Shown here: positions 3,559 to 35,818 of the stretch, piece after piece
Position numbering within the stretch: the stretch's first letter is position 1
How the letters are laid out: the number at the start of each line of letters is the position of its first letter
Assembly: GCA_015060735.1 (NCBI GenBank)
Contig: SUXX01000013.1
Coordinates: forward strand, 1 to 43,669
DNA from: Bacteroides sp.
GTDB taxonomy: Bacteria; Bacteroidota; Bacteroidia; Bacteroidales; Bacteroidaceae
Reading direction: 5' to 3'
Length of the DNA: 43,669 bases
Notes under the pieces: model-generated
The model's database searches: none
What the model was told of the DNA's origin: nothing
Seen by the model: only the letters and a program-made list of their open reading frames with translations
Position numbers and translations under genes: made by a program

Positions 3559-6500
3559 TTAGAGCAAACGACCAATTACCGATTCATTGATATTTGCACC
3601 AGTACCTGTACCATTGTTAGTAACAGTTACATTGGAAGCCGAACAACCTGTAACATTGGCTGTTTTAGCAGCACCAACAACCTGTCCAGCATCACGACCT
3701 GCAGAAACAGAACTATTCTTAGCTGTACAATTTGATAATTTAGGTTCTGAATTTCCATTACCAATAAGAGCTCCAGCCTTATCGCCATTAGCTTCACTAT
3801 TTGCAACAGTACAACTTACTTCTGCATTTTCAACATGACAATTATCAACTTTTACATTACCTTCCATATATCCTACCAATGCACCACAGTTGTGATGACC
3901 AACAATCTTAGCAACATTAATAGTCACGTTCATTACCTTAATTGTTTTATCATCACCACTTCCATTGCCTTCAAGCCAACCAAACAAAGCAGAAGAATAA
4001 TGATTACCTGTTTCAGCTTCTGAATCTACAGAAAGGTTAGAGATAATCTTATTTTGTCCATCAAAAATCCCTTTAAATTCTGTTGCACCAGTTTGGCCAA
4101 TCGGTTGCCAATCACGATTTTGCAAATCAATATTTGCAACGAGCTTCACAGTCTCGCCACTGAAATCTTTATTATTTACATTTACTTCATTAGCAAACCA
4201 GAACATACCATTGGCATTAGAGATGCTGTATACCTTACCTGACAAAGATACACCATCAGCGATTTGACCTTCAATCTTCTTCTTGCCACCAACAACTCTT
4301 ACCAAATCAGCATATGCAGCTGCATCTTCGTCTACCCATACAGCATATTCGGTATCAGCTGCAACGCTTTCAATGTTCACATTATTCAAAGTGATATCAG
4401 CACCAGCCTTTGACATAACAAGAATAGCTGCTTTACTTCCCGTTGTTTCAAATCTAGTATCAGTAACAGAAAGCTTACCTAATGTTGGATTAGAATCATA
4501 TTGTTGATCTATCTTTATACCTCTATTACCTTTAACTACACAATTACTCAATGTTGCGTTAGTTCCAGGAGTCATCCAAATTGAGTAGAATGTATTAGAT
4601 GTATCAGCAGAAGAATCTATAGTAGTATTCTTAATCTCCGCATTCGTACAGATTGTAATAGGATGTTCAATTACGCAGTCCTCAATATTCACATCAGTAT
4701 AGAATTCCATGTTATAAGTATTCCATGTAGTAGCAGTCCAGTTTGATTTTTCCAATGTCAAGTTCTTGAAGTTCATTACCGCATTTGGATTAATCGTACG
4801 ATAAGTCACATAAGAACCATTGTAAGAAGCGCTAGCACAAGTGATATTCAACTTGGCTTTTGTATCTCCTTCAATACCAGAGATGCTTATTGTTTCTGTT
4901 GATGCACCTCCAAGACCTGTTGTCAAATTCCAATCAATATAATCTGTAACCACAGCACTAATAGTCTTTGCATCCATCGTCATTGCTGTATTAAGAACTT
5001 CCGGTATATCAGCATAAGCATAAACCTTACCATCTTCGTTGATGATACTTCTATCTGCTTTCTTGTCGTTCCAAAGAGAATTGCCACTTACACTACCCTT
5101 ACCAAAGCCTGTCACAGTTGCATTATTTATTGTAATGACATGCATATCAGTGTTCTTCAACAAAGTACCATCAATTTCAATCGCGGCCTTTCCTTCTACA
5201 GGTTGGCTGGCCTTGAAAGTACAGTCAATGAAAGTTGCATTAGTTCCACATGCTCCTTCATTATATACAAGAACACTCTTACCGGCACTATTGAATGTAC
5301 AGTTTTCAAAAATAACTTCATTAGAACAATATGTCCAAACGTTATATAATTCAGCATCAGTCTGATTGAATGTACAATTTACAAAATGCGCCTTTCCATA
5401 TAAGAATATCTGATTATCAATAGTACAATCAGTATAATATTCTTCAGCGATATGCTGGAGACCTTGATAATTTGCAGATGTTCCCTTAATTGTAATATTC
5501 TTAAATTTCAGAGTGCTACCACCCATATTAGGGGTTCCGCTTCTATCAACAACTGCATCTTCACCAACACCAACGATAGTCAGTTCCTTACCAGAAACAC
5601 CTGTCAACGCAACTTCACCAGCTACGGCAATTTCTGTTGCACCATTTTTGATAGCTTCTTGGAATTCAGCTTGACTAGTAACCACTGCAGATTCTGAATC
5701 TGTATTACCAACAACTGTAGTTTCAGTAGATGTATTACCATTTGTGGTCAAATCAGCTTCTGAACTATTACCCAAATAAGAACCTACAATGGCACCAGCA
5801 TTAGTCGGCTTAGAAGAATTATAATCCTTTTCACTGTCTGTTCTATCCACTGTGACTACAACACCTGTAACAGTATTACCCTTAACAGCCTTTGCATCGG
5901 CAGCACCGGCAATACCACCCAAGTCGCGATAACCAGTGATAGTTACATTAATAGCAGTATTATCTGAAAGTTCATTTCCATTATCTACAAAGAAATTACC
6001 TGCAATACCACCAACCTTATCACCATTATCATACTCACCAGTCAAGTTATCCGGAGTAGCGGTCAGCTTCACATTTTCTACCTTACAATTTTTGATGCTA
6101 CCATATACAAAACCAGCAATACCAGCAACACATCTGTTACCTTCTACAACCGCATTCTTCACTGTTACGTTTTCAATTGTACCAGTATTGAAGATGATAC
6201 CAGCCACAACAGCAATACCACCACCATTTTCAGCTACGACATGTTTCACGTTTGCACCATCAACTGTAAAATCCTTGATAGTGCCACCATTCAATTTACC
6301 GAAAAGACCTGCAGGCAATTGATCGCCTTCCGTCAAAGATCTTGACGCAGTTTGTGCTACAATATTCAATTCATAAATAGTAAAGTCCTTACCCTCAAAT
6401 GTACCCTGGAATGCCTTACCATCATCTGTTCCAGCATTCACATTTCCGCCATCACCAAGACCTATCGGAGTCCAAGGCTGATTATTCAAATAGATATGGT

Positions 6501-7683
6501 CAGTCAAACGAACGATAGCACCCTTGAATGTATTGGCACCACTATTTACTTGTTCTGCTACCCATGCCAATTGCTTAGCATTAGCAATTTGGTATACATC
6601 TACACCGTTTTCCTGAATCGGAGTAACAGCTTCTGTAGATTCACCATCCCACAATTCGCGGATGATTTCTTCCTTTTCAAAGTTCTGATCAATGATGATA
6701 GTGAATTCACCGTTAGTAGTCAATACATTACCAATGATGTTTGTTCTATAGTTACGATATACCGGAAGTTGTGCAACGTTGATAGTATTGATAGAACCTT
6801 TTGCGTTAGCAAATTCCACATCTACTTCGTACAATTCTGACTCACCTCTTTCTGCAGCCAACAAATAGTTCATAGACAAGTGTGCAAATTCTTCATCAAT
6901 AGAATAACTCTTGTCACCATTCACGTCAGCACGCAAAATGTCATAGTCATTTTGGGTAGATGCATCTGCCTTCGGCAAGAAAGCCATCTTAAATTCTGCA
7001 TCAGCAGTATGGTCATCTTCACCAACCTTACCAGTCAAAAGATTCAAAGAAGTAGGAATCTTCTTTACAACCAAACGACTTTGTGTGATAGGCTGCTCAC
7101 CCAACAGGATTTTAGCTGCGGCGAAATCAGCCTTGGTTGTACCCACATTCAACTGAGCAAACGGACGCTTCAAGACAATGGTCTTTGTAAAATGTGATTC
7201 TACCTTATAACCCAATTCCTTCGCAAAGAAAGCATCACGTGTTTCATCATTGGCATCACCGTTATAGTTTACAGTGATATTTTGCAAGTCATCCATGTTG
7301 ATGTTGTAATGCTTATTACCCTTTACTTGTGCCCAAAATACAAAATCGTATGTTTGGCCCTTAACCAAACGCATCTTTACAGTAGCTGTTCTATTTTCAA
7401 CATCCGCTTCACCTACATTCACAACATAGAAATTCCCTGAAGCATCGTCCACATTCTTAATAATAGGAACTACATTTCCATTTTGATAAATACCATAGTA
7501 CAATTGGTCCACTAAATCGGCTTCACCCAATCCACGTGACTGCACTGCGCCACTCAATTCCACTGTGAAACTTGCGTCCACATAATCATTGCTGTTATTC
7601 GCAATCGGTTCTTCTTCCTGCGAACAGCCTGTTGCCAGCAACATGGTCGCCATGGCAAACATTGATAATAGATTCTTTTTCAT
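3559..7683 (-). CDS. Giant fimbrillin-like lipoprotein with GLUG-type and beta-helix repeats
   Basis: About 1374 aa. I chose the ATG at 7683 (MKKNLLSM, matching the paralogues) over a GTG three codons upstream. Lipobox Cys20 is followed by SQEEE. Residues about 30-345 are the fimbrillin-like module, with KRPFAQLN near 175 and VYRNYRTN near 320, closing with FTIIIDQNF. The rest is an extended repeat region. Two copies of a unit beginning with an ANA.../W..EQVN-like segment and W.PIG followed by F.G.F.G are seen, near 375-440 and 1170-1240. GLUG-like segments (GLFG, GGIAG, GALVGY) follow each copy, and Asn/Thr-rich beta-helix rungs lie between. I infer a surface adhesin or tip subunit with a long fibrous domain. 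It is preceded by a 475-base non-coding gap, so it may have its own promoter. Confidence 0.85.
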   Translation of the reverse strand: MKKNLLSMFAMATMLLATGCSQEEEPIANNSNDYVDASFTVELSGAVQSRGLGEADLVDQLYYGIYQNGNVVPIIKNVDDASGNFYVVNVGEADVENRTATVKMRLVKGQTYDFVFWAQVKGNKHYNINMDDLQNITVNYNGDANDETRDAFFAKELGYKVESHFTKTIVLKRPFAQLNVGTTKADFAAAKILLGEQPITQSRLVVKKIPTSLNLLTGKVGEDDHTADAEFKMAFLPKADASTQNDYDILRADVNGDKSYSIDEEFAHLSMNYLLAAERGESELYEVDVEFANAKGSINTINVAQLPVYRNYRTNIIGNVLTTNGEFTIIIDQNFEKEEIIRELWDGESTEAVTPIQENGVDVYQIANAKQLAWVAEQVNSGANTFKGAIVRLTDHIYLNNQPWTPIGLGDGGNVNAGTDDGKAFQGTFEGKDFTIYELNIVAQTASRSLTEGDQLPAGLFGKLNGGTIKDFTVDGANVKHVVAENGGGIAVVAGIIFNTGTIENVTVKNAVVEGNRCVAGIAGFVYGSIKNCKVENVKLTATPDNLTGEYDNGDKVGGIAGNFFVDNGNELSDNTAINVTITGYRDLGGIAGAADAKAVKGNTVTGVVVTVDRTDSEKDYNSSKPTNAGAIVGSYLGNSSEADLTTNGNTSTETTVVGNTDSESAVVTSQAEFQEAIKNGATEIAVAGEVALTGVSGKELTIVGVGEDAVVDRSGTPNMGGSTLKFKNITIKGTSANYQGLQHIAEEYYTDCTIDNQIFLYGKAHFVNCTFNQTDAELYNVWTYCSNEVIFENCTFNSAGKSVLVYNEGACGTNATFIDCTFKASQPVEGKAAIEIDGTLLKNTDMHVITINNATVTGFGKGSVSGNSLWNDKKADRSIINEDGKVYAYADIPEVLNTAMTMDAKTISAVVTDYIDWNLTTGLGGASTETISISGIEGDTKAKLNITCASASYNGSYVTYRTINPNAVMNFKNLTLEKSNWTATTWNTYNMEFYTDVNIEDCVIEHPITICTNAEIKNTTIDSSADTSNTFYSIWMTPGTNATLSNCVVKGNRGIKIDQQYDSNPTLGKLSVTDTRFETTGSKAAILVMSKAGADITLNNVNIESVAADTEYAVWVDEDAAAYADLVRVVGGKKKIEGQIADGVSLSGKVYSISNANGMFWFANEVNVNNKDFSGETVKLVANIDLQNRDWQPIGQTGATEFKGIFDGQNKIISNLSVDSEAETGNHYSSALFGWLEGNGSGDDKTIKVMNVTINVAKIVGHHNCGALVGYMEGNVKVDNCHVENAEVSCTVANSEANGDKAGALIGNGNSEPKLSNCTAKNSSVSAGRDAGQVVGAAKTANVTGCSASNVTVTNNGTGTGANINESVIGRLL

Positions 7684-7731
7684 ATAAGACACTAATTAAA
7701 ATTTTATTCTTTCATCTTTTTCAAAAACGCT

Positions 7732-8167: not shown

Positions 8168-11100
8168 TTATTTGACTGTTGCATTAGCAGTATTGCTTGT
8201 AACAAGTGTTGCAATATTTTCCGCTGTAATGGCAACACCATCCAACTTACAATTTTCAAAAGTACATGCAGCTACACAATCCATTTTGAAACCAGACTCA
8301 AAATTACAACCTATAAATTCAGTTGGAGCATAAGGACGGCAGAATGAATATCCATTGCCTTCACCGAAGTTACATCCAGTGAATTTTGCAGTACCAATAG
8401 TAGCAGCATAACTTGTCCAACCATTGAATGTTGAGTTGTATGCCTCGAAGTTTTGATTCAGACCTTGGTCGCAAGAAATAGTGTATGTAGTACCATCGAT
8501 TATTACATTTTTAAGAACAACCGTTTTACTATAAGTACTATTATGGTTAATAAAGATACCACGGAAAGAACCTGTAACTTTAATATTCTCAATAAGACCA
8601 CCGGTAGTATTAATACCAGAATCCCATGTACCTCCTGCGCCCTTGATGTCAAGAGTATAACCACCACCATCAATTGATTGACCATTCTTCACATTGATAC
8701 CAGTTGTACCGTATGCATTGCTCATGTTAGCAGGATCAATCTTAATGTCTGTTGTAAGCAATACACTATGACCTGCTTCCAACGCTGCTACTAGGGCTTC
8801 TGAATTTGACACTAAACAATTGTCGTTATTATCGAAATCCTTCAACAAAAGATTACCGTTAGCATCATAATTAACTACATCATCGAAACCATACTCAATG
8901 ATACGATTAGGATCATTGGCAATAAACGTATTCTTGCAGTCCGGATTATAAATGTTAATATCCAAAGTCTTACCTTTAATACCCTTTCCACCATTATCCT
9001 TGTCTGAATAGATGTGTACCCAGAATGCACGGCTTGTACCTTCGAGTGTAGAATTAGTGATGTCTACATCGTTCATACCTGCTCCATTGTTGAACACACG
9101 TACAGGGATGTAAGAAGACTTGATAGTAGAATTATTGACATTGAGAGTAATACCCTTACCCTTACCATCAGCATTCACAAGGTCGATAGCATAAGCCATA
9201 TCCGAACCACCCAAGTTTTCGATAGTAGCATTATCTACATTCAAAGTTCCATTGAAGCCAACATAGAATACCTCAGTACATGCATTCCATCCGTAATTAT
9301 CTCCATTGTGTCTGAGTGTAATTGTTCCATCCTTTACTGTCAAATCACCACGAACATCTATCAATACCACATTGTCAGCAGATGTAAGTTTGCCATCTTC
9401 ATTCTTATCAGAAATTGTATTGATTGCTTTGATAGTCTTACCGTTCAAATTCAAAGTACCTTGCCCCTTGAACAAATATGATTCATCTTCGATTTCAATA
9501 TTCTTGTTCAAAGTGATAACTTCTTCTTCGCTATTCATATAGACCATTGGAGCGATTGAAGAGAATTGACCGCCAGTGATTGTGATAGTTTCAGCTGCAA
9601 GTTCATCGTCACCATAGCTGTAAACATCTCCCCAAAGACCATTGAATGTACCACCGGTAATATTTACAGTTTCGATGGTATTCTTGTTTTTACCACCAGT
9701 CAAAGCAACATCACCATTGAATGTACCACCGCTGATATTGATTTTTACATTTTTCATGTCATTACCATAACCATAAGAATAGATGGCAAGTTTATTGCCA
9801 CTATCAGCTGTACCATCGATAGCTGTACCAGTGAGTGTACCACCTGTAACAGTCAAGTTCATTTCAGGAGCATCATTTGCATTGCTTCCAGGAGCTTGCA
9901 TCCAGATCGCACGGAGACCTTCTATTTCACCATCATTTACAGTTACGCTAGATGCGCCAAACTGACGGAGAGCAATGTTATGGTCGTTCTTAATAATACC
10001 ATCTTTGATGATTACAGAACCACGATTGGCAGTCTGAATAACATAAAGAGCATGCGGGAATTTACCTACATGGTCCTTTGCATCAATTTCAATTGTACCA
10101 CCCTCAATTGTCAATTCGCCTGAATTAACGATGGTATAGTTACCTTTTCCATAGTTAGAATCTGCTTCACCTGCATAAGTGAATATCATCTTACCTTTCT
10201 TTTCTTCAGAAGAGTCCTTGATTACCAATTCATGATTGTTGGTAATCATGGCTTCTCCTTGTTCATCAGATGTATAAGAAAGAGTATAGCCATTCAAATC
10301 AATTGTATAATCTCCAGGAACGACAAATGGTTTTTCAATTTCAGTATCCTTTGTCAGCTTCCATTCATTTGCTTTCGCATCCGCTGATGGAGTCTCGATG
10401 ATACCTTCACCAATAGTTCCAAGAGTACCACCAGGTTCTACTGCTACAACGGTTGTTTCATTATTTCCTTCCTCTTTTATAATATTATTAACTTCACCTC
10501 CGTTCATGATAGTTACATTACCCGTTCTCACAATCACAGTACCAATGGATGAGCCCTCAGCCACTTCAAGAGTAGTTGAACTTGAACTAATAGTGAGAGT
10601 AGTGATGTTACCTATTACTTTAACGTGAGAGTTAGGAATAATAATTTCTGCTTCATCAATATTAGTATTCAAATCAGTTGCAACAACTACTGTATCAGCA
10701 AATTCTGTACCGGTTACTTTAAAGCCTTTGTTGAGATCCAACAAGTTCAAAGTTATGCCAGTAGCGTTAACAGGGAATTCTGTTGTATTTTCAGGTATTA
10801 CAATGTTAATTCCGCCTGTTTTTGTATAATCTTTAAGTCCTTTGACATTCAAAATCACCTCTTTTTCAACCTTAAGCAATTCCTTCAAGGCATTATTCAA
10901 TTGAGCAACTTCTGTTATATCAAGGTCTTTTACCAATGCAATATCATCGGATTCTACATTATGATCTTCTACACCAAAGTCAGTATCAAGTGTAATCGAG
11001 AAGTTTTCATCCTGAGTCAAGATACTACCGGTTACATTGGTACGATAGTTGCGTTGCAATGGCAAGTTAGGAATAGTACGCACACTTACAGCATTACCTG

Positions 11101-11932
11101 CTACCTCTGCATTACTTTCGTGTGCACGGTAGAAAGTAAGTTCAGAATTGAACAAGTCTGATTCTGTATTTACCAATGCGTATGCCATGGCCAAATAGTA
11201 GTAGTTATCAGTACCAACTGTAAGCAACTCATTCTTAGGTTCGGTAATAGCATCATATTTTTTCAAGATAGGAGCTACGTCATATACAACTTCTGCCGGG
11301 TCGCTAGCTATACCTGTTCTGGCATCGAACTTAGTATAAACACCAGTCAATTTGATTTTTGAATGAGTAGCATTAGCACCCAATTTTCTTGCGTTTGCTA
11401 TATCATCACTTTCGCCAGCCACATTCAATTGGGCAAGAATACGCTTCAGCTCCACTTTGTTAGTAGTTTGTGCATTGGCTCTATGAGTGATAACAGTCGA
11501 GAAAGCATCGTATGTTTCCTGATTGGCCAAAAGAGAAGTCTTGAATTCAAGGTTTCTCAAGTCACCAGTGGTAGGAACTTCGAATGCAGAAGCATCCTTG
11601 TCATGAGCGAAGAATGCAATTTCAAAATCCAATTGATTCACCAATGGAATAGTTACAGAGAATGTACCATCAGTTTTTCTTTCTGCAGAACCTTCCATCA
11701 AAAGGTCCGACTTGTTTACCTCATAAACGGCATAATGCAATTCGTCTACATAATAGCCCTTACCGATAGTCACTCCTTCAGCTATTGCACGTGAGCCTGT
11801 ACCGGCATCTTCCAGTGCAACAGTGAAAGTCACATTTTGCTTGTTGCTTTCCATGATGTTTTCTTCATCGGAGCAACCGGTTGCAAACAGCATTGTAGCC
11901 ATTGCAAGCATGGATAAAAAGTGTTTCTTCAT
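8168..11932 (-). CDS. Giant fimbrillin-like lipoprotein, beta-helix adhesin
   Basis: 1254 aa. Signal peptide with lipobox Cys20 followed by SDEEN. The fimbrillin-like module is at about residues 33-320. It includes ELKRILAQLNVAG near 160 (the usual RPFAQLN is altered to RILAQLN), PLQRNYRTN near 298 and FSITLDTDF. The N-terminal third is closely similar in protein and DNA to the next upstream paralogue (12019-15975), which indicates tandem duplication, while the C-terminal regions have diverged. From about 500 there are many GG.F/GGTF/GGTI-type rungs of a right-handed beta-helix, and the end resembles that of the 781-aa paralogue (NSTF.GW...A.IG.AKFTGC). It is probably a surface-exposed adhesin or tip protein. 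Confidence 0.85.
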   Translation of the reverse strand: MKKHFLSMLAMATMLFATGCSDEENIMESNKQNVTFTVALEDAGTGSRAIAEGVTIGKGYYVDELHYAVYEVNKSDLLMEGSAERKTDGTFSVTIPLVNQLDFEIAFFAHDKDASAFEVPTTGDLRNLEFKTSLLANQETYDAFSTVITHRANAQTTNKVELKRILAQLNVAGESDDIANARKLGANATHSKIKLTGVYTKFDARTGIASDPAEVVYDVAPILKKYDAITEPKNELLTVGTDNYYYLAMAYALVNTESDLFNSELTFYRAHESNAEVAGNAVSVRTIPNLPLQRNYRTNVTGSILTQDENFSITLDTDFGVEDHNVESDDIALVKDLDITEVAQLNNALKELLKVEKEVILNVKGLKDYTKTGGINIVIPENTTEFPVNATGITLNLLDLNKGFKVTGTEFADTVVVATDLNTNIDEAEIIIPNSHVKVIGNITTLTISSSSTTLEVAEGSSIGTVIVRTGNVTIMNGGEVNNIIKEEGNNETTVVAVEPGGTLGTIGEGIIETPSADAKANEWKLTKDTEIEKPFVVPGDYTIDLNGYTLSYTSDEQGEAMITNNHELVIKDSSEEKKGKMIFTYAGEADSNYGKGNYTIVNSGELTIEGGTIEIDAKDHVGKFPHALYVIQTANRGSVIIKDGIIKNDHNIALRQFGASSVTVNDGEIEGLRAIWMQAPGSNANDAPEMNLTVTGGTLTGTAIDGTADSGNKLAIYSYGYGNDMKNVKINISGGTFNGDVALTGGKNKNTIETVNITGGTFNGLWGDVYSYGDDELAAETITITGGQFSSIAPMVYMNSEEEVITLNKNIEIEDESYLFKGQGTLNLNGKTIKAINTISDKNEDGKLTSADNVVLIDVRGDLTVKDGTITLRHNGDNYGWNACTEVFYVGFNGTLNVDNATIENLGGSDMAYAIDLVNADGKGKGITLNVNNSTIKSSYIPVRVFNNGAGMNDVDITNSTLEGTSRAFWVHIYSDKDNGGKGIKGKTLDINIYNPDCKNTFIANDPNRIIEYGFDDVVNYDANGNLLLKDFDNNDNCLVSNSEALVAALEAGHSVLLTTDIKIDPANMSNAYGTTGINVKNGQSIDGGGYTLDIKGAGGTWDSGINTTGGLIENIKVTGSFRGIFINHNSTYSKTVVLKNVIIDGTTYTISCDQGLNQNFEAYNSTFNGWTSYAATIGTAKFTGCNFGEGNGYSFCRPYAPTEFIGCNFESGFKMDCVAACTFENCKLDGVAITAENIATLVTSNTANATVK

Positions 11933-12018: not shown

Positions 12019-15000
12019 TTACTTTATTGGGGTTTCTGTCAGATAATCATTGATGATGACTTTATGAACAGTATATTCTACAAAGTAATCATCATTTTCC
12101 ACAGGAGCACCTCCTCCCCAATAGTTGCCTGAAAGGTCGATATCTGTATAGTATACACTTGCGCAAACATCGTTACCCAAAGTGCGTCCTTCAGCTGTAA
12201 TTGTATTATCAACAAAGGCATTACCTGTAATCTTTGCTTCATAACCAATCATCAAACCTCCGGTGGCTCGTTGGGTAGTTGCGTGAATTGTTGTCACTTC
12301 ATTTTCTTCAAATAAATTATTGGTAATAACATGATTCTTGGTAAATCCCATATATACAGTGGCTGCATTTCCTGTTGATTTCACAGTGTTGTAAATAAAT
12401 TTATTATTATCGATAGTAGCACCTGCACCACATACATAATACAATACAGCTGTATTATTACAATTATTTCTCTCAAATACACAATTATCTACCACTTGAG
12501 GTTGGTCACTTTCATCTGCATCGTAATTAAGTGTAACTACCATATTACATGTGTTGTTCTTGAAAGTACAGTTTGTGATAGTACTCTTACCTAAAAGACG
12601 GAATAAACCTTGTGCTTGAGTATGTACACCATTCTTTGCAGTAACATTGTCTGCTTCAAACTCTGCATTAACAGTACGGATAACTGCTCCGTCCTTTATG
12701 CCATCAAACACTACGTTTTTGATAGAAGCCTTGCCACCGGTAATGTCAAACAAAGCATAGGTGTTTGTGCATTCATCTGCCATACTGATGGTGTAACCAT
12801 TGCCGTCGAGAGTAAAATCAACATTAGATATGGCGATAGTATTGTCCATAACGACATCACTAAACAATTTAATGTTTTTATTACTTCCTTCAATAGCTTC
12901 ATTTATTGTCTTATACCATGTATCATCATCTTTTACTTGATAAGAATCATCCGTAAATGCAGTATCGAAAATATTATTGTCGAGAATTGCAATAATTTGA
13001 TCAGCTGTTACAGTTAAGTTCAATTGCCACAAGAATGCGCCATCACCTACAACAGTATTATTGCTGATATCCATTACTGTTTCGGAATAATCACCAGAAG
13101 CACTGAACTGTATTGCACCACGTCTGCCAACTTCACTGAAGGTATTTCCTTCAACTTTCAAATTGGAAGGAGCGGCATTGAACCAGAAGCCACCATTGCA
13201 ATTATCGAAGCTATTTTCATTAATTGAAACTTCACTTGCATTGATATCTTTAATAGCATATGCCATCAAGTTCTTGAATGTACATCCTTCCACAACAAGC
13301 GTAGAAGCATTGATAGGACTTACAGCTACCATATCGAATGTACAATTTGTCAATGTTACAGAACCAGTGTTCATGAACTGCAATTCACCATTGATGTTTT
13401 CTGCAGTTGTGGTAGCACCACTTGTATTCCATGCATCAGTTACAGTTACAGCTGCCGGAACGAATTCGAAGTTTACATTACTGATGGATACGTCCGTCAA
13501 TTCGCTGAAGCGTTGGTATTGTGCATAATATACCTCTGGATTAGCATAATCCTGCAAACGATCTGGAACTTTACAACCATTAGAATTATCAGTTTGGCCA
13601 GAAACAGGTACGATTTTCACCAAAGCACCTTGACCATCATAAATACCATTTGCCCCAATTACCGCATTTACAAATTCACCAAATAAAAGATAATCACCTT
13701 TCACCACATTGTAAGTACCATCTTCATTTTCTTCGAAGCTATACTTTTCAGCCAAGAGTGCTTCATTAGTAGCATTCTTTGCAGCTTCTGTAAATGTACC
13801 ACCAGTGATAAGATTTCCAGTCAGTTTTGAGACATCATTGCAACCAATCTTAGTTGTGAATGTACCTCCTGTTACGTTGAAATCCACAGAGTGATGAACT
13901 CCTTCCGTAACATTACCAATAAATACAGAAGAGCCATCAGCTCCCTTTGGCGCAAAAGTACCACCATTAATAGTAAGATTTGCTGTATCATCTACAGACT
14001 GTATCCATACTTGACCTTCGAAGACACCGTCATTAATAGTCATTGCACCCTTCCAAAGACGAACAGAACGATAAGTCGGAGTACTGATGGTACCACCATT
14101 AATTGTTGTTTCACCTGAATATTGGAATATCGCACAATACATGTGAACAACATTATCTGAAGTATTCTGTTCTCCAAGATGTTCAATAGTACCATTTTCT
14201 ACTACAAGTGTATCATTATTTGTAATAGTATAAGAACCCCAACCAAATGATGAATCACCAGCACTTGTGTCCTTAAACGAAATCTTACCAGTACCCTTTG
14301 TATCCTTGATAATAAGAGTACCATTGTTTTCAATCATTGAATAAGATTTAGTACATGATTTCTCTTGACTGATGGTATGACCATTCAAGTCAATAGTCAT
14401 AGTTTTATCGGTTGCAATAGAAATAGGACCCATTAATTCTACATTTTCGGTAAGTATCCATTCTTCACCGATATTTTCAAGAGTCGTTTCTACCTTAATG
14501 TTATCCAATGTTGGAACATTAGTAAGTGTACCGCCCGGTTCTACAGAAACTGTAATATCCAAGGTGCCATCTGTAGTAATACTACCAACAGTACCATCAT
14601 TCTTGATTTCTACATTACCCTTCTTCACTGTCAAGTTAGTAATAACTGTACCAGCAGCAACCTCAAGAGTACCTGGGCCTGTAGAAGAAATTACCTGAGT
14701 GTGAGTACCCTTCTTCAATGTAACGTGAGCATTAGGTACATCAATATCAGTAGTTACCACAGTCGTAGTTTCAGGGATAGAAACAAGCACCGGCTTATCA
14801 TAAACTGAACCAGACACTTCAAGGTTAGAAACCGAGATATTAAGATCCAACAAATTGAGAGTAATGCTTGAAACTGTTGCATCATTAGGGATATTGATAG
14901 CTACATCTGTGAATGTAGAAAGACCCTTCACATTCAGAATCAATTCCTTGGTGTTTGGTTTAGCCAAATTCGCCAAAGCGGTATTCAATTCAGGCAGATT

Positions 15001-15975
15001 CTTTACAGTAATATCACTTGCTTCTACATGATGAATATTATCAAAGTCTGTATCAAGTGTAATCGAGAAGTTTTCATTTTGAGTCAAGATATTACCAGTG
15101 ACATTGGTACGATAGTTGCGTTGCAATGGCAAGTTAGGAATAACTCGCTTGCTTACCATATCACCCGCTGTAGTCGGTTCATCTTCATCCGCACGATAAA
15201 ACTCAAATTCAGAATCGAACAGGCCAGATTCATCATTGACCAAGACATACGCCATAGCCAAATAGTTGAATTGTTCTGTTCCAACAATAAGTTGCTCGTT
15301 TGTGCCGTCCGCTTGCTTCAAAATCGCTTCCGTCTCGAACGTAACATTTTCACTACCACTAGCAATACCAGAACGGGCATCGAATGAAGTGGGAACACCC
15401 TTCAATACAACCTTTGAATGTGTTACTGTAGCATTCAGATTGGCAGCATTCTGCAAATCTATGTCGGTTGTAGCCACATTCAGCTGTGCCAACGGACGCT
15501 TCAGCGTAACCGGTGTAGTTGTATTCGAAGTGGTTTGAAATTCCTTTCTCGCATGAAAGAATGCATCGTATGCTTCTTGGTTCGCTTTCAGTGAACCCTT
15601 CATTTGGATATTCCGCAAATCTCCATCTGACGGAACGTCAAAAGCAGAACCGTTTGTGCAATGAGCGAAGAATACGATATCAAACTTCAAGCCATTGACC
15701 AATGGAATGATAACGGATGCAGCTCCATTACTTACTGTCTCATCGCCATATGTCAATAGCTGGTCTTTACCGCTTTCGTAAACGGCATAATACACCACGT
15801 CTACATTCGAGCCATCAGCCAAAGCACGGGAACCTGTTCCTGCGTCTTCCATCTCCACCTGAAAGGTGACATTCTGCTTATCGCCACCTTCGTAGGTCAG
15901 TTCCTCTTCGGAACAGCTTGTTGAAACAAATAGGCACATGGCCATTGCCAACAATGAATAAAAACTTTTTCTCAT
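12019..15975 (-). CDS. Giant fimbrillin-like lipoprotein, beta-helix adhesin
   Basis: 1318 aa. Lipobox Cys21 followed by SEEEL. The fimbrillin-like module spans about 35-315, with LKRPLAQLNVATTD near 155, PLQRNYRTN near 290 and FSITLDTDF. A conserved linker region (LNTALANLAKPNTKELILNV and nearby) is shared with the adjacent paralogue. The C-terminal two thirds carry beta-helix rungs (NCTF, GCTF, NN.F, ITGNAF) and end near a GNYWGGG motif, which is frequent in NosD/pectate-lyase-like right-handed helices. I infer an adhesin or glycan-binding fibre. It lies 48 bases after the 314-aa gene and 86 bases before its duplicate. Confidence 0.85.
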   Translation of the reverse strand: MRKSFYSLLAMAMCLFVSTSCSEEELTYEGGDKQNVTFQVEMEDAGTGSRALADGSNVDVVYYAVYESGKDQLLTYGDETVSNGAASVIIPLVNGLKFDIVFFAHCTNGSAFDVPSDGDLRNIQMKGSLKANQEAYDAFFHARKEFQTTSNTTTPVTLKRPLAQLNVATTDIDLQNAANLNATVTHSKVVLKGVPTSFDARSGIASGSENVTFETEAILKQADGTNEQLIVGTEQFNYLAMAYVLVNDESGLFDSEFEFYRADEDEPTTAGDMVSKRVIPNLPLQRNYRTNVTGNILTQNENFSITLDTDFDNIHHVEASDITVKNLPELNTALANLAKPNTKELILNVKGLSTFTDVAINIPNDATVSSITLNLLDLNISVSNLEVSGSVYDKPVLVSIPETTTVVTTDIDVPNAHVTLKKGTHTQVISSTGPGTLEVAAGTVITNLTVKKGNVEIKNDGTVGSITTDGTLDITVSVEPGGTLTNVPTLDNIKVETTLENIGEEWILTENVELMGPISIATDKTMTIDLNGHTISQEKSCTKSYSMIENNGTLIIKDTKGTGKISFKDTSAGDSSFGWGSYTITNNDTLVVENGTIEHLGEQNTSDNVVHMYCAIFQYSGETTINGGTISTPTYRSVRLWKGAMTINDGVFEGQVWIQSVDDTANLTINGGTFAPKGADGSSVFIGNVTEGVHHSVDFNVTGGTFTTKIGCNDVSKLTGNLITGGTFTEAAKNATNEALLAEKYSFEENEDGTYNVVKGDYLLFGEFVNAVIGANGIYDGQGALVKIVPVSGQTDNSNGCKVPDRLQDYANPEVYYAQYQRFSELTDVSISNVNFEFVPAAVTVTDAWNTSGATTTAENINGELQFMNTGSVTLTNCTFDMVAVSPINASTLVVEGCTFKNLMAYAIKDINASEVSINENSFDNCNGGFWFNAAPSNLKVEGNTFSEVGRRGAIQFSASGDYSETVMDISNNTVVGDGAFLWQLNLTVTADQIIAILDNNIFDTAFTDDSYQVKDDDTWYKTINEAIEGSNKNIKLFSDVVMDNTIAISNVDFTLDGNGYTISMADECTNTYALFDITGGKASIKNVVFDGIKDGAVIRTVNAEFEADNVTAKNGVHTQAQGLFRLLGKSTITNCTFKNNTCNMVVTLNYDADESDQPQVVDNCVFERNNCNNTAVLYYVCGAGATIDNNKFIYNTVKSTGNAATVYMGFTKNHVITNNLFEENEVTTIHATTQRATGGLMIGYEAKITGNAFVDNTITAEGRTLGNDVCASVYYTDIDLSGNYWGGGAPVENDDYFVEYTVHKVIINDYLTETPIK

Positions 15976-16023: not shown

Positions 16024-16968
16024 TCAGGGCTGTGGGTCTTCAACCGTTACATCATATTCACTGGCACCCATCAACAATTCACCATAAATGTTGGTAATAT
16101 AGTTGACTGTCAGTGGAACATTCTTTACTTCCACCGTATTGATGGATGTTTCCCCTGATTTTATATGAATGGTACATTTGGCTTTCTTATCTTCCACCGG
16201 CCAAACGTAACAAAAAGTCAAGCGATTATATGACTCATTATTCAGGGTTTCTTGCATATCTAAAATAGACGCATCACCAAATTGATAGGTTCCTTCGCCT
16301 TCCGTAGATGTTATTTCACCCGTCCATGCATTATATTCCGTTGCGATGGATTCCATCGATACGGTTACATTTGCCTCTATGGATGAATCATCCTGTATGC
16401 TATATTTTGTTTTAGCTTCCGCCAAATCCGTACTCTTGGTGGAGAAATTCAACAAGGCAAAAGGACGTTTCAAAGCTACATGCTTGATACTCAAAGACGC
16501 ACCGACCGTCACATCGTCACTCTGTCCTGTGAATGCATCCAGTTCTATTTGATTGCATTTGAATGTAGTAGGAATAATGATTTTAGTCAAGTCGTCAGAA
16601 GCCTGATATGCCGGAACTCCATCTGTATTGTTCATTGCCCAAAAGACCACTTTATAAGTCTTGTCCTTAACCAACATGGGAGTATAAAAGAACTCACCGT
16701 TCCCTATCTTGTCCGCAGTTCCGTTCATCATATATTCATAGCGGTATCCTCCATTTTCATCTTTAATTCTTTCATAAACCGCACATAAAAGTGTGTTTAC
16801 AGAATCTCCGGATTCGAAAAGGTCGACTGTAGCCCTTGATTCTATGTCTTGAAGGGAAGTCATGAATGTCACAGGCATCTCCGTTTCGGGAGTGTCATTT
16901 TCAGCACAAGATGCAAAAGTGAAAAGCATCATTATACTTATTAAGTATGGATGTATAAATAGCCTCAT
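16024..16968 (-). CDS. Short fimbrillin-like (DUF6562-type) lipoprotein
   Basis: 314 aa with lipobox Cys21 (ASCAENDT). It contains only the fimbrillin-like module: KRPFALLNF near 175 (AQLN replaced by ALLN) and VPLTVNYITNIYGELL near 290, a degenerate form of the RNYRTN motif. It ends soon after the final strand, so it has no adhesin extension. It sits between the anchor-type gene (20 bases upstream) and the giant paralogues. It is a candidate major shaft subunit or an adaptor joining the anchor and the long subunits; the sequence cannot decide which. Confidence 0.78.
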   Translation of the reverse strand: MRLFIHPYLISIMMLFTFASCAENDTPETEMPVTFMTSLQDIESRATVDLFESGDSVNTLLCAVYERIKDENGGYRYEYMMNGTADKIGNGEFFYTPMLVKDKTYKVVFWAMNNTDGVPAYQASDDLTKIIIPTTFKCNQIELDAFTGQSDDVTVGASLSIKHVALKRPFALLNFSTKSTDLAEAKTKYSIQDDSSIEANVTVSMESIATEYNAWTGEITSTEGEGTYQFGDASILDMQETLNNESYNRLTFCYVWPVEDKKAKCTIHIKSGETSINTVEVKNVPLTVNYITNIYGELLMGASEYDVTVEDPQP

Positions 16969-16988: not shown

Positions 16989-18017
16989 TTAAGGTATCAC
17001 AATATTATGCTCTCCATCAAAGTCCGGATTGATGCTCACCCCACCATCGGAGTCCGCCATCAGGAACTTGCCTCGAAGAACGGTATGCTGGTCACGCTTC
17101 AGAGGGACATTCACATTGGTCACCTTGGCCAACTGCTTGCCCTGCTTGTTGAATACGCCCAAGTTCACAATTACACTGGATTCGTCACTGTTCACAAATA
17201 CATAGTCGAATCCCATGGAGGCTTCCGTCTCGCTGAAAGGTGACAATTTGGAACTGAACTGTACCCCGGTGGACGAGTCGATGGCTTTGTCGGTCAGGGC
17301 ATTGAAGGTGTTCGGCATGAAACCGCCATAGGAAATCACAATCCGATAGTCTTCCAAGTGGATGTCGGATGCATCGAAGTCCTGATTACCATCGGCACTG
17401 TTCTGCTTCAACTCGCGCACTTCCTTATCGATAAAGTCCTGCAAGTCGGTACACACAAATTCGAACTTACCCATCGGGCGCTGCATGTCCAGCACAATGG
17501 TGTCAGGTATCAGTTCCATGACACCTGTTTCCAACAGAATATCTTCCGCCCCACGGAAAGCATCCCGACAATCGGTATTACCGGTGTGCTGACCTTGCAG
17601 CATGATTTCATGGAAACCGGAGGTATCGTAGAAAGTATCGGAGACACCGCTTTTCACATAGTCCGTCCAGGCAGTCAAACGATAGATACCTGCCGGAAGT
17701 TCCAGGAAGAAACGGTTGTCCAGTTCTTGTCCCCATTCACGGGTAAAAACAAATTCACGGGTAGCGGTACGAGCATAATTACCTAGTTCGTCCACCGGAT
17801 AAGCTCGGATGGAATAACGGATATGATAACCAGACTCATCGGCTGCGGCACGGGAAAAAGCCACATTCAGGGTATCCCACTCGGTTTCATGTTCCAAAAC
17901 GACATATAGAGGAACAAGCGGAGCATCTTCCGGCCACTCATGTACATTGCAAGACGGAAGTAAAGCCAGCATCCATCCGCACACGGCAATCCATATAAGA
18001 GACAATTTTCTTATCAT
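16989..18017 (-). CDS. FimB/Mfa2-family fimbrial anchor-type lipoprotein
   Basis: 342 aa. The signal peptide is followed by a lipobox with Cys23 and NVHEWPE, typical of the second gene of Bacteroidales fimbrial operons. The fold signature includes LDMQRPMGKFEFV (about 165-180) and a final NVPLKRDQHTVLRGKFL segment. In Porphyromonas the corresponding proteins (FimB, Mfa2) anchor the fimbria to the outer membrane and limit its length. Its start codon overlaps the stop of the DUF3575 gene (ATGA, 18014-18017), so the two are translationally coupled. DUF5119 is an alternative label for this kind of lipoprotein. Confidence 0.75.
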   Translation of the reverse strand: MIRKLSLIWIAVCGWMLALLPSCNVHEWPEDAPLVPLYVVLEHETEWDTLNVAFSRAAADESGYHIRYSIRAYPVDELGNYARTATREFVFTREWGQELDNRFFLELPAGIYRLTAWTDYVKSGVSDTFYDTSGFHEIMLQGQHTGNTDCRDAFRGAEDILLETGVMELIPDTIVLDMQRPMGKFEFVCTDLQDFIDKEVRELKQNSADGNQDFDASDIHLEDYRIVISYGGFMPNTFNALTDKAIDSSTGVQFSSKLSPFSETEASMGFDYVFVNSDESSVIVNLGVFNKQGKQLAKVTNVNVPLKRDQHTVLRGKFLMADSDGGVSINPDFDGEHNIVIP

Positions 18018-19264
18018 CGCTTGCCTCCTTTCTTATTGAGGTCAAACCGGTAAGCGATAGTCACGGCTACATTGTCCAAACCAAAGAATGTTTTCTTGTA
18101 ATCGCCTTCCAAACGTCCGTTTGGTTCATTGTAAAAGCGGTCGTAGTGCGAAGCATACACACCAGCACCGAGGGTAAATTCCAGCTTCCAGCGTCGGTTC
18201 TTGCTGAGAGGCATCCGGTAGCCACCGCTGATACCCCCACCCCAGGACGGGGTTTCGCGGCCATGGTCCTGATAGCGCCAGTCGCCGCCCAAGGCATAAT
18301 TGTAGAAGGCTGCACCGAAGTGGGCGCCCGCAAACCAACCTTCGTTATTTTCGTCCATCCAATAGCGAACCTCCGGTTGCACATTGAATGTACGGAACTT
18401 CAAGGTGGACTTGAAATAGTCCCATGCAGAGTAATAAATCGGCAAGGTGAACGACCAGTGCTTGGCCAGATCCACTTCCACGGCGACATTGGCTATTGCC
18501 ATCGCCAGACCGATTGCATTCGTCTTCACATGTAGCTCGCGGGCCCATTCTTCGGCCTTAGGAACTTCAACGGGCTCCGGGTCCGGTTCAGGAACCACTA
18601 CTACAGGAGTCGGCTCAGGTTCCGGCTCGGGTTCGGGTTCCGGTTCCGGGATGATTTCCGGAGATTTTTCTTGCTTATAGGTTACGACTATCACACACGC
18701 ATTACGCATCTGGCTGAAGAACCGGCGGTTGATGGCGGTCCAAACACGGCCACCGTCTATTTCTTTCAATCGGGGAATGCGGTGGTCGATTTGCGCACCG
18801 GTGTGATAACCCACCAATTTTTCTTCGTCATCCAAAATATCCAACACCTCCTGTTTGTGCTCCAGGTCCGACTGGGCAATCTGGCCTCTCAGATAGTGCC
18901 AGGGGATGTAATCGTCGTTGCGGGAAATGAGGGTATCCGGAATCTCTACTTCCCGACGGACCACCTTTTCCAGAGCTTCCAGACGGGCACGGGAAAGGCG
19001 ATGGTTGATTTGATAACTGCCATCCGGCGAGGCGGCACCACTAAAGGATACTTCGGTAATTCGGACGGTGCTGTCCTGACGGAGGCTTCTCAGGAAGGAA
19101 ATCATTTCCTCCATACGGGCACCGTTGTCGCTGAAGGAAGTATCAATCGTTTTGCTATTTACGCGGAAATCAACGCAAATTTCAGTGAAATTCTCCTGAG
19201 CGAAACCGGTGGTGACGCATAACAGCAAGAGAACCAATGATATAACATTTCTTTTCATTCTCAT
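18014..19264 (-). CDS. OmpA-like / DUF3575 outer-membrane protein, first gene of the fimbrial operon
   Basis: 416 aa with a cleavable signal peptide (about 1-22). Residues about 30-190 resemble an OmpA-like peptidoglycan-associated module (SGAASPDGS..., N..LS.AR). A Pro/Glu repeat linker follows (about 205-235). Residues about 245-416 form a DUF3575 beta-barrel of alternating aromatic strands ending in AVTIAYRFDL. Homologues occur at the head of type V pilus operons in Bacteroides and are thought to help assembly or anchoring at the outer membrane. A second in-frame ATG lies two codons downstream. It is the first gene after the proposed invertible promoter. Confidence 0.85.
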   Translation of the reverse strand: MRMKRNVISLVLLLLCVTTGFAQENFTEICVDFRVNSKTIDTSFSDNGARMEEMISFLRSLRQDSTVRITEVSFSGAASPDGSYQINHRLSRARLEALEKVVRREVEIPDTLISRNDDYIPWHYLRGQIAQSDLEHKQEVLDILDDEEKLVGYHTGAQIDHRIPRLKEIDGGRVWTAINRRFFSQMRNACVIVVTYKQEKSPEIIPEPEPEPEPEPEPTPVVVVPEPDPEPVEVPKAEEWARELHVKTNAIGLAMAIANVAVEVDLAKHWSFTLPIYYSAWDYFKSTLKFRTFNVQPEVRYWMDENNEGWFAGAHFGAAFYNYALGGDWRYQDHGRETPSWGGGISGGYRMPLSKNRRWKLEFTLGAGVYASHYDRFYNEPNGRLEGDYKKTFFGLDNVAVTIAYRFDLNKKGGKR

Positions 19265-19284: not shown

Positions 19285-19300
19285 TTCTCTAAAGAAGAGA
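19285..19300. repeat. Left inverted repeat of candidate invertible promoter
   Basis: TTCTCTAAAGAAGAGA is the exact reverse complement of 19483-19498. The site lies within an imperfect dyad (TTACATTCTCT ... AGAGAGTGTAA). It starts 20 bases upstream of the first fimbrial gene. Confidence 0.7.
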
Positions 19301-19482
19301 GTGTAACTCCAGGATTAACGCTGAATATGAAAGAATTACAATTTCAGAATGTTTAGATTTGCTCCCTATTTGCTAAACAAATGACAGAAAATCCCCCAAT
19401 TCCTCAAAACATTAAAATGAAATTTAACGAATAAAAGTTTGCTTATTTTAGAAATAAAAACGAAATTTGCAAAGAATAAACT
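19301..19482. other. Candidate invertible promoter segment, shown in OFF orientation
   Basis: 182 bases bounded by perfect 16-bp inverted repeats. The only good promoter inside points right, away from the fimbrial operon. Inversion would move its -7 box to about 19314-19321 on the minus strand, with transcription starting near 19307. That gives a leader of about 43 bases before the ATG at 19264. No convincing minus-strand promoter was found in the present orientation. Confidence 0.65.
19438..19469 (+). promoter_or_regulatory. Promoter inside the invertible segment, facing away from the operon
   Basis: TTTG (19438-19441), 20-base spacer, GAAATTTG (19462-19469; consensus TAnnTTTG with one mismatch). 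In this orientation it would read into the palindrome and the terminator at 19565-19600. Confidence 0.5.
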
Positions 19483-19514
19483 TCTCTTCTTTAGAGAAGT
19501 TTATTCTTTGCAAA
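19466..19514. repeat. 49-base perfect palindrome containing the right inverted repeat
   Basis: Perfect 22-bp arms (19466-19487 and 19493-19514) around a 5-base loop. The centre holds the right copy of the 16-bp inverted repeat (TCTCTTCTTTAGAGAA, 19483-19498). It overlaps the end of the -7 box. It may be a recombinase or accessory-protein site, or a transcript-blocking hairpin. Confidence 0.75.
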
Positions 19515-19564: not shown

Positions 19565-19600
19565 AAAAAAAGGAGCTACATTGCTGTAACTCCTTTTTTT
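19565..19600. terminator. Bidirectional terminator
   Basis: A7-GGAG-C-TAC (19565-19579) pairs with GTAACTCC-T7 (19586-19600), so there is a run of T downstream on both strands. It ends the stable-RNA operon on the minus strand and would stop rightward transcripts from the invertible segment. Confidence 0.75.
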
Positions 19601-19606
19601 CATCTG

Positions 19607-19681
19607 TCGGGATACCAGGATTCGAACCTGGGACCCCCTGCTCCCAAAGCAGGTGCGCTAACCGGACTGCGCTACATCCCG
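19607..19681 (-). tRNA. tRNA-Pro(TGG)
   Basis: The minus strand folds as a tRNA: acceptor CGGGATG/TATCCCG with discriminator A, TTCGAAT T-loop, and anticodon loop TTTGGGA with anticodon TGG. It lies 20 bases after tRNA-Thr and before the shared terminator. No CCA is encoded. Confidence 0.93.
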
Positions 19682-19701
19682 AAGAATTTATTTATCATTT
19701 G

Positions 19702-19775
19702 AGCCTCTTGTCGGATTCGAACCAACGACCCCGAGATTACAAATCACGTGCTCTGGCCAACTGAGCTAAAGAGGC
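19702..19775 (-). tRNA. tRNA-Thr(TGT)
   Basis: The minus strand folds as a tRNA: acceptor GCCTCTT/AAGAGGC, D-arm AGCTCAGTTGGCCAGAGC, anticodon loop TTTGTAA with anticodon TGT, and T-arm GGTTCGAATCC. Only three bases separate it from the SRP RNA terminal helix, so the two must be separated by RNA processing. Confidence 0.93.
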
Positions 19776-19778
19776 GGG

Positions 19779-19874
19779 TGGGAAGCTTACTATATCGCGC
19801 CGCTACGACCTGCTACCTTTGCTGCGGTCAAGCCCTGGAGGATTCACAAGGAGCTGGCCGTATAGGACTTCCCA
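19779..19874 (-). ncRNA. ffs: Small bacterial signal recognition particle RNA (4.5S-type)
   Basis: 96 bases closed by a terminal helix TGGGAAG/CTTCCCA. The apical region has the SRP core, with CCAGGGCTTGACC opposite AGCAAAGGTAGCAGGTC (the Ffh-binding internal loop). It works with Ffh and FtsY in co-translational targeting to the inner membrane. It is the first gene of a minus-strand operon with two tRNAs and has a perfect-spacing promoter just upstream. Confidence 0.85.
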
Positions 19875-19891
19875 TTTCGTTTTTGCGAGTG

Positions 19892-19921: not shown

Positions 19922-20029
19922 TACCCTAAGGTACATTTTTTCGTTTTTAGCATAAAAAATACATTTTTTCACCCTCTTTTATACCTACGATTGCCATAAA
20001 AGACGTACATTTGCATCCGCAAACAATAT

Positions 20030-33999: not shown

Positions 34000-34082
34000 G
34001 GGCAAATACCAGAGTGGCCAAATGGGGCAGACTGTAAATCTGCTGGCTTACGCCTTCGGTGGTTCGAATCCATCTTTGCCCA
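34000..34082 (+). tRNA. tRNA-Tyr(GTA), copy 1
   Basis: 83 bases. Acceptor GGGCAAA/TTTGCCC with discriminator A, long variable arm typical of class II tRNA, and anticodon loop CTGTAAA with anticodon GTA. Identical to copy 2 at 34218-34300. Confidence 0.95.
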
Positions 34083-34090
34083 CTAAAATT

Positions 34091-34163
34091 GCGGAAGTAG
34101 CTCAGTTGATAGAGCATTAGCCTTCCAAGCTGAGGGTCGCGGGTTTGAGCCCCGTCTTCCGCT
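34091..34163 (+). tRNA. tRNA-Gly(TCC)
   Basis: 73 bases. Acceptor GCGGAAG/CTTCCGC with discriminator T, anticodon loop CTTCCAA with anticodon TCC. It lies eight bases after tRNA-Tyr copy 1. Confidence 0.95.
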
Positions 34164-34167
34164 CTTA

Positions 34168-34202
34168 GAAATCAGATAGTTCTTTTGAGCTATCTGATTT
34201 TT
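34168..34202 (+). terminator. Terminator after tRNA-Gly
   Basis: AAATCAGATAG pairs with CTATCTGATTT around a short loop, followed by a T run. It separates tRNA-Gly from the second tRNA-Tyr. Confidence 0.75.
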
Positions 34203-34217
34203 TAAAACAAACATGTT

Positions 34218-34300
34218 GGGCAAATACCAGAGTGGCCAAATGGGGCAGACTGTAAATCTGCTGGCTTACGCCTTCGGTGGTTCGAATCCATCTTTGCCCA
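34218..34300 (+). tRNA. tRNA-Tyr(GTA), copy 2, likely attachment site
   Basis: Identical over all 83 bases to copy 1. It lies beyond a terminator and directly before the integrase gene and the accessory region. Its 3' half is therefore the likely chromosomal attachment site or left junction of the integrated element; this is an inference from position. Confidence 0.93.
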
Positions 34301-34305
34301 CAGAT

Positions 34306-34343
34306 AATCAGATAGTTATCGAAAGAAGCTGTCTGATTTTTTG
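34306..34343 (+). terminator. Terminator after the second tRNA-Tyr
   Basis: AATCAGATAG pairs with CTGTCTGATT (one G-T pair), followed by TTTTTTG. The stem is nearly the same as that of the terminator after tRNA-Gly. Confidence 0.7.
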
Positions 34344-34486
34344 TTTTTATATAGGTTTGTTTAATGATCAGTTCAATAGTTCTATCCGGTGATTTAGACT
34401 GCTTGAACTAAAGGCCACCTATCATGATTGCTACCACTCCCTTGCTTTAAAATATACGGTTGGATTTGACCATGACATCAACTAAA

Positions 34487-34522
34487 AGTCAACCGTGGAG
34501 TCAACCAAGAAGTCAACCGTAG
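34487..34522 (+). repeat. Three 12-bp direct repeats before the integrase
   Basis: AGTCAACC recurs at 34487, 34499 and 34511, an exact 12-base period (flanks GTGG, AAGA, GTAG). It ends five bases before the ATG. Such repeats next to an integrase are candidate arm-type recombinase sites or an autoregulatory operator. The rest of the 34301-34526 gap holds the tRNA terminator, an AGTTCAA/TTGAACT stem (about 34371-34417) and a TAGGTTTG -7-like box (34352-34359). Confidence 0.7.
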
Positions 34523-34526
34523 TATT

Positions 34527-35741: not shown

Positions 35742-35749
35742 CCTCAAAT

Positions 35750-35788
35750 AATCTCACTTGTAGCTAATGCACGTGAGATTTTCTTTTT
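35750..35788 (+). terminator. Terminator of the integrase gene
   Basis: AATCTCAC (35750-35757) pairs with GTGAGATT (35773-35780), then a T-rich tail. Confidence 0.7.
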
Positions 35789-35818
35789 AATTTTGTACCA
35801 ACCAAATAACATGATGCT

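Follow-up and report, generated by a model that had tools for sequence, protein, structure and literature searches.

A candidate phase-variable invertible promoter ahead of a putative fimbrillin-type operon in Bacteroides sp.

Promoter inversion driven by a tyrosine recombinase is described for the BF2766/tsr19 system of Bacteroides fragilis, in which, according to the sections of the account that we draw on, the recombinase also acts in trans on a distant site (PMC4747536). The same species has phase-variable outer surface proteins that include a fimbrial-type protein (Weinacht et al. 2004, as summarized in an excerpt of PMC12632263), and read mapping in a defined gut community has identified invertons associated with fimbrillin genes, namely groups 137, 112 and 122 (PMC11892184, in part). 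An excerpt of PMC10939037, by comparison, makes no mention of fimbriae. Going by these partial sources, the literature already covers phase-variable fimbriae (PMC12632263), the inversion of Bacteroides promoters by recombinases (PMC4747536) and invertons close to fimbrillin genes (PMC11892184). The sequence comparisons presented here make a well-supported case that the element upstream of the operon studied is a further example of this familiar device, a Bacteroidales inverton in front of what appears to be a fimbrillin-type operon; the device itself is not new.

The likeness to BF2766/tsr19, as far as the excerpted account of that system goes, consists in a tyrosine recombinase, inverted repeats around a promoter and a surface product, and it is a likeness of layout; the downstream operon is a different one, and inversion is proven there whereas it is deduced for our element (PMC4747536). 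Similarly, IVp-II, the distant site worked in trans in that system, adjoins a housekeeping operon (groES/EL), much as our element adjoins tRNA and SRP genes. With the outer surface proteins of B. fragilis our locus shares, by the description in part of PMC12632263, tyrosine-recombinase inversion at a locus encoding a fimbrial-type protein, and with the gut-community invertons, again by a partial description, fimbrillin-family genes positioned for regulation, a Bacteroides promoter motif and integrase genes near the groups (PMC11892184).

The window, as we call the whole stretch of DNA analysed, is 43,669 nucleotides long and constitutes one whole contig (C24) of a 2.45-Mb assembly that is 81% complete, and the contig has open ends. 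An inverted repeat lies upstream of the operon, between the first start codon (19264) and a terminator-like hairpin (19565-19600); its arms, 19285-19300 (TTCTCTAAAGAAGAGA) and 19483-19498, are complementary at 16 of 16 positions and enclose 182 nt, just as a first-pass annotation of this DNA had stated. That annotation had also held such a match to be improbable by chance, though biased toward purines or pyrimidines; the bias is present, and among Markov simulations of the local intergenic stretch (2000, first-order) and of the whole window (40, second-order) none produced a 16-bp repeat. At a gap of 60-600 bp, no other inverted repeat in the 43.7-kb window is perfect over 13 bp or more, and the 16-mer, even with up to one mismatch, is confined to the two arm positions in the assembly. 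Being the sole repeat of its kind in the window, never equalled in the simulations and unique in the assembly, it is real rather than fortuitous. Short repeats, perfect or nearly so and spaced by about 100-300 bp, characterize the Tsr-type invertons of Bacteroidales, and this repeat is of that kind. The operon-proximal arm contains the core TCTCT-AAAGA-AGAGA (19286-19300) and the operon-distal arm TCTCT-TCTTT-AGAGA (19483-19497), that is, the same spacer in opposite orientation. The arms bound the 182-bp segment (19301-19482) that we believe to invert, and an element of 174 bp occupies the same place in another genome of the genus, G011. Exact TCTCTN5AGAGA sites number four in the genome under study against none for the reversed control pattern; two of the four belong to the window element, the only one among them with the spacer AAAGA.

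Inside the repeats, a promoter match of 9 of 10 consensus letters, TTTG-20-GAAATTTG on the plus strand (19438-19469), faces away from the operon, with TTTG at 19438-19441 and the -7 box at 19462-19469 ending 13 nt from the distal arm. The box is without the TA of TAnnTTTG, the -7 consensus being given as TANNTTTGY in the excerpt of PMC12632263. In silico inversion of the segment leaves the end of this box 49 nt upstream of the first start codon of the operon, in agreement with the roughly 50 bases estimated earlier. The earlier description of this promoter as the only good one, facing away, holds for its direction but needs qualifying as to number: a weaker match on the minus strand, TTTG-19-GTCATTTG (19378-19408; 8 of 10 letters, the best inward match inside the repeats), faces the operon and possibly provides a basal promoter in the present orientation. 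The outward promoter faces tRNA genes, and the next plus-strand gene starts at 20030, 560 bp off and past three minus-strand RNA genes, with a TACATTTG box of its own at 20006-20013. In Markov segments of window composition, a promoter of at least 9 of 10 letters occurs somewhere in 21% and is hence not rare, while one whose -7 box lies within 20 nt of an arm occurs in 2.35%.

The operon comprises eight minus-strand genes on the contig. Its first gene (18014-19264) encodes a 416-aa protein with DUF3575 in the C-terminal part, which presumably has a role in fimbrial operons. Then come a 342-aa DUF6562 protein (16989-18017), a 314-aa DUF6562-type protein that is a putative pilin (16024-16968), a 1318-aa protein with DUF6562 and beta-helix matches that is a putative tip or adhesin subunit (12019-15975), a 1254-aa protein whose DUF6562 and pectate-lyase-like adhesive matches fall below the cut-off (8168-11932), a 1377-aa DUF6562 protein (3559-7692), a 331-aa protein with DUF6562 and Mfa2 (fimbrial anchor) matches just below the cut-off (2492-3487) and, near the contig end, a 781-aa DUF6562 protein (126-2471). 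DUF6562 thus exceeds the Pfam cut-off in five of the eight proteins and falls below it in two more. None of the four operon proteins compared with NCBIfam had a fimbrial match there, and a PDB sequence search gave weak 'surface protein' matches for one operon protein and none for another. In view of these NCBIfam and PDB results, a fimbrillin-type (type V) pilus operon is a reading that we infer from the below-cut-off Mfa2 match and from the fimbrial associations of the DUF6562 and DUF3575 families.

A homologous operon in G011 (contig C65, locus L085), of the same genus and with a first gene 59% identical to ours, carries a 174-bp segment flanked by the perfect 36-bp arms of an inverted repeat, and each arm holds two TCTCTTTGGAAGAGA-type 15-mer units separated by 7 bp. 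The G011 promoter, TTGG-21-TAATTTTG, likewise faces away from the operon, and the two elements are alike in arm core, promoter direction and promoter-arm distance (15 vs 13 nt). They differ in that the G011 element has the longer repeat with a doubled core and an adjacent Tsr, a 402-aa tyrosine recombinase encoded upstream together with a 517-aa protein of repeated helix-turn-helix (HTH) units; the gene for the latter has its own repeat pair (14 bp, gap 173), which lies between it and the recombinase gene. The inner segments of the two elements align poorly in either orientation. Inversion control is not fixed in the first-gene family, since four of the six closest full-length first-gene homologues (C62 of the same genome, G031 C38, G031 C172 and G036 C80) have no such upstream repeat and a 12-bp repeat at 60-600 bp was found anywhere in only 6 of the 31 loci fetched with the first-gene protein. 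Upstream of the C62 paralogue there is no repeat pair, just a lone TCTCTTCAAGAG. That locus (L065, 1940-2046) also shows about four tandem GATTCACTNNAGTGAATC-type palindromes in steps of some 25-28 bp, located approximately 270-365 bp ahead of the DUF3575 paralogue.

With the G011 C65 recombinase as query and a threshold of 1e-60 or better, Tsr matches were found in 42 of 61 same-genus genomes. Thirty-three Tsr loci were examined, as a rule the one best locus per genome and not every match, and a perfect repeat of at least 12 bp stands beside the Tsr gene in 27 of them, with gaps of 142-260 bp; the six loci without a repeat include two cut by contig ends (L140, L145), while L116 and L117, in which no repeat was found, count as misses in this figure and were omitted from the promoter-state calls. 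Together with the window's element and the fimbrial one of G011 these make 29 elements, whose scores against TCTCT-N5-AGAGA are 10 for thirteen, 9 for four, 8 for ten and 7 for two, the window arm scoring 10 of 10. Among 5800 shuffled arms, 52 score at least 8, four score 9 and none scores 10, a lenient control since these elements were already in view when the core was chosen. Spacers vary from element to element, but the two arms of a pair carry the same one in opposite orientations. Sites of tyrosine recombinases must match in the stretch that is exchanged, and the identical spacer within a pair fits this. A promoter of at least 8 of 10 letters whose -7 box is no more than 20 nt from an arm is present in 18 of the 27 Tsr-linked elements, and one of at least 9 of 10 in 11, five of these being near-identical orthologues. 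By consensus score, 20 of the 27 read as OFF, four as ON and three as unclear, a rough call whose reference was the direction leading off the Tsr gene rather than an annotated target, and one in which near-identical orthologues mean that not all cases are independent. All eight fimbrial (DUF3575) loci picked by hand for a Tsr-like match near a DUF3575 match on the same contig have a repeat, with a different core in G017 and G027. In G011, TCTCTN5AGAGA occurs at 26 sites, against 5 for the reversed control pattern.

Two pairs of relatives differ in the orientation of the segment between the repeats. L137 (G021) and L139 (G042) match at 129/139 positions when one segment is inverted and at 82/162 directly, with outside flanks identical at 291/300 and 292/300, and L151 (G008) and L154 (G060) match at 154/162 inverted and 32/280 directly, with flanks at 288/301 and 295/300. 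With flank identities of 96-98% in both pairs, we take these alignments to mean that the segment between the repeats has inverted naturally from one sister species to another. L141 and L142 also align better inverted (133/167 vs 101/195), with a weak downstream flank (135/441), and L132 and L133 compared with L136, all of one repeat type, show no inverted/direct contrast. For the window element itself, seen in one orientation in the single genome of its species that was compared, a DNA search of the 61 same-genus genomes for the other orientation gave, among the matches listed outside its own contig, only matches within query 442-601, which corresponds to tRNA-Pro and its surroundings; viral contigs scanned with the outer flank for the other orientation gave no match, and a contig search for it returned one distant homologue.

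The shared arm core, the similar arm spacing and the similar promoter-arm distance in elements beside tyrosine recombinases of sister species, some of these elements being inverted from species to species, together with the homologous G011 fimbrial operon of the same layout plus a recombinase, lead us to posit that the window element is very probably a phase-variable invertible promoter (inverton) flipped by a Tsr-type recombinase acting in trans, with the operon OFF or low as assembled. This bears out the first-pass proposal of an invertible promoter captured OFF. We infer the inversion of the window element, the acting enzyme and the effect on expression from these comparisons. In the mechanism we propose, a Tsr-type tyrosine recombinase of Bacteroidales would pair the two TCTCT-AAAGA-AGAGA sites, and strand exchange within the spacer (at points that we can only place approximately) would flip the 182-bp segment. 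In the assembled orientation, with the promoter directed toward the tRNA genes, the fimbrial operon would be OFF or low; after a flip, transcripts from the promoter would carry a leader of about 40 nt ahead of the first gene, and the operon would be ON in part of the cells. We propose that the recombinase works in trans because no Tsr lies next to the window element, and the intact Tsr on C3 would be the best candidate in this incomplete genome. If the element does flip, the fimbrillin-type operon would join the surface structures switched on in part of the gut Bacteroidales population, as an example of an element without an adjacent recombinase, so probably worked in trans. It would also point to a simple rule for the sites, TCTCT-N5-AGAGA plus a spacer specific to each element or set of elements, that could predict which recombinase pairs with which switch.

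Within the window no Tsr is found near the element; the contig ends just past the last listed operon gene, and a recombinase may lie beyond that end. The window integrase at 34527-35741 is unlikely to be the invertase, and we judge it to be of the mobile-element type because it is 28% identical to Tsr and sits beside two tRNA-Tyr genes. Its surroundings (34000-36811, 41437-42453), in which tRNA-Tyr, tRNA-Gly and tRNA-Tyr are followed by the integrase with an arm-binding domain and later by a DUF3871 gene, look like an inserted mobile element. Elsewhere, the genome has one intact close Tsr relative (52%), on contig C3, followed by a repeat ATCTCCTAGCAGGAGAT (17 bp, gap 169) and then an UpxY antiterminator gene (L118, 3038-5117), a locus that we read as a capsule-type switch in the same genome; the sites of this Tsr have the spacer TAGCA, differing from that of the window element. 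On C16, a truncated Tsr remnant (L119, 3003-3305) retains a 100-aa, C-terminal-only frame between unrelated genes. The genome also holds other tyrosine recombinases and two serine recombinases that could act on the element; ten loci of other recombinases were checked, of which three have a perfect repeat of 12-13 bp (gaps 72, 71 and 341) and seven none. As regards a capsule promoter of the serine-invertase (Mpi) type, the loci of the two resolvase-family genes (C17, C44) have no 12-bp repeat at 60-600 bp.

These observations bear on the possibility that the element is a relic inverton, locked after loss of its cognate recombinase, its operon being either silent or transcribed from the weak inward promoter. 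The missing neighbouring Tsr, the remnant on C16 and a spacer that recurs at no other exact site of the genome would all suit such a history, yet all 16 bp of the two arms still match, C3 carries an intact Tsr, the assembly is incomplete with open contig ends, and the action of one Tsr in trans on a distant promoter is documented, in the portion of the BF2766/tsr19 account drawn on here (PMC4747536). We therefore consider a relic unlikely; it overlaps in origin with the inverton reading, and the likelihoods that we attach to the explanations are not meant to sum to one. Alternatively, the arms could be paired palindromic operators, a regulator binding TCTCTTCTTTAGAGA at both ends and looping the promoter region without any inversion. 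Each arm is indeed itself palindromic (TCTCT/AGAGA), and the doubled 15-mers of the G011 arm would be in keeping with such binding, but the 5-bp centre is non-palindromic, differs between elements and is the same but inverted within a pair, the strong promoter points away from the operon, and inversion from species to species is seen among relatives whose core is similar, all of which makes this explanation very unlikely.

A perfect 22-5-22 palindrome (19466-19514), centred on the distal arm, was absent from the first-pass annotation; having one half inside the segment and the other half outside, it exists in the present (OFF) junction only. Its RNA hairpin has a folding energy of -30.1 kcal/mol (z -9.3), and the value is -18.1 kcal/mol (z -7.1) for the 5' end of the RNA made from the outward promoter; in the flipped (ON) form the perfect stem on the promoter side is only 6 bp. 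Its 22-bp stem is the longest among the 29 elements, the next being 14 and 12. Long OFF-junction hairpins are not a general feature, as 26 of the 28 other elements have promoter-side/distal stems of at most 9 bp, by a measure that depends on core centring and reads 0-1 in six elements with poorer core fit. Conceivably the palindrome alone matters, as an insulator or terminator that separates the fimbrial operon from the tRNA-SRP genes, and the match of the left arm is fortuitous; its length and stability would be apt for this, but a terminator-like hairpin (19565-19600, minus strand, -20.3 kcal/mol) already stands 3' of tRNA-Pro, between the element and the minus-strand genes for tRNA-Pro(TGG) (19606-19681), tRNA-Thr(TGT) (19701-19775) and the Bacteroidales small SRP RNA (19775-19881; RF04183, 111 bits), a second perfect 16-bp copy 182 bp off is not expected by chance, and the arms fit the recombinase-linked core, so that we hold it to be highly improbable. 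That the whole repeat is a chance product of purine/pyrimidine-biased DNA, as the composition of its arms might suggest, has a negligible likelihood given the local Markov simulations and the corresponding element in G011.

Returning to the invertible promoter, we speculate that each flip also toggles the hairpin, which would then be a recombination-coupled insulator that leaves the OFF state doubly silent, an idea based on one genome to which we give a modest chance. The OFF stem could stop transcripts of the outward promoter from running into the tRNA genes and tRNA-side transcripts from running into the operon and, if so, would represent a new variant of inverton control.

Two further features of G011 deserve mention. 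The genome contains eight site pairs (L163 and L164 among their loci) that share the spacer TAGTA and lie 175-188 bp apart, start to start, possibly a set served by one recombinase; two of the eight were read as loci. The 517-aa HTH gene, situated between the Tsr gene and the fimbrial operon (L085, 2048-3601 and 1750-1950), is preceded by a repeat pair whose promoter points away, and its product, which is possibly a phase-variable regulator, has matches in 16 of the 61 same-genus genomes, G011 included. In G047 an HTH-repeat gene again adjoins a Tsr, with a 17-bp repeat between them.
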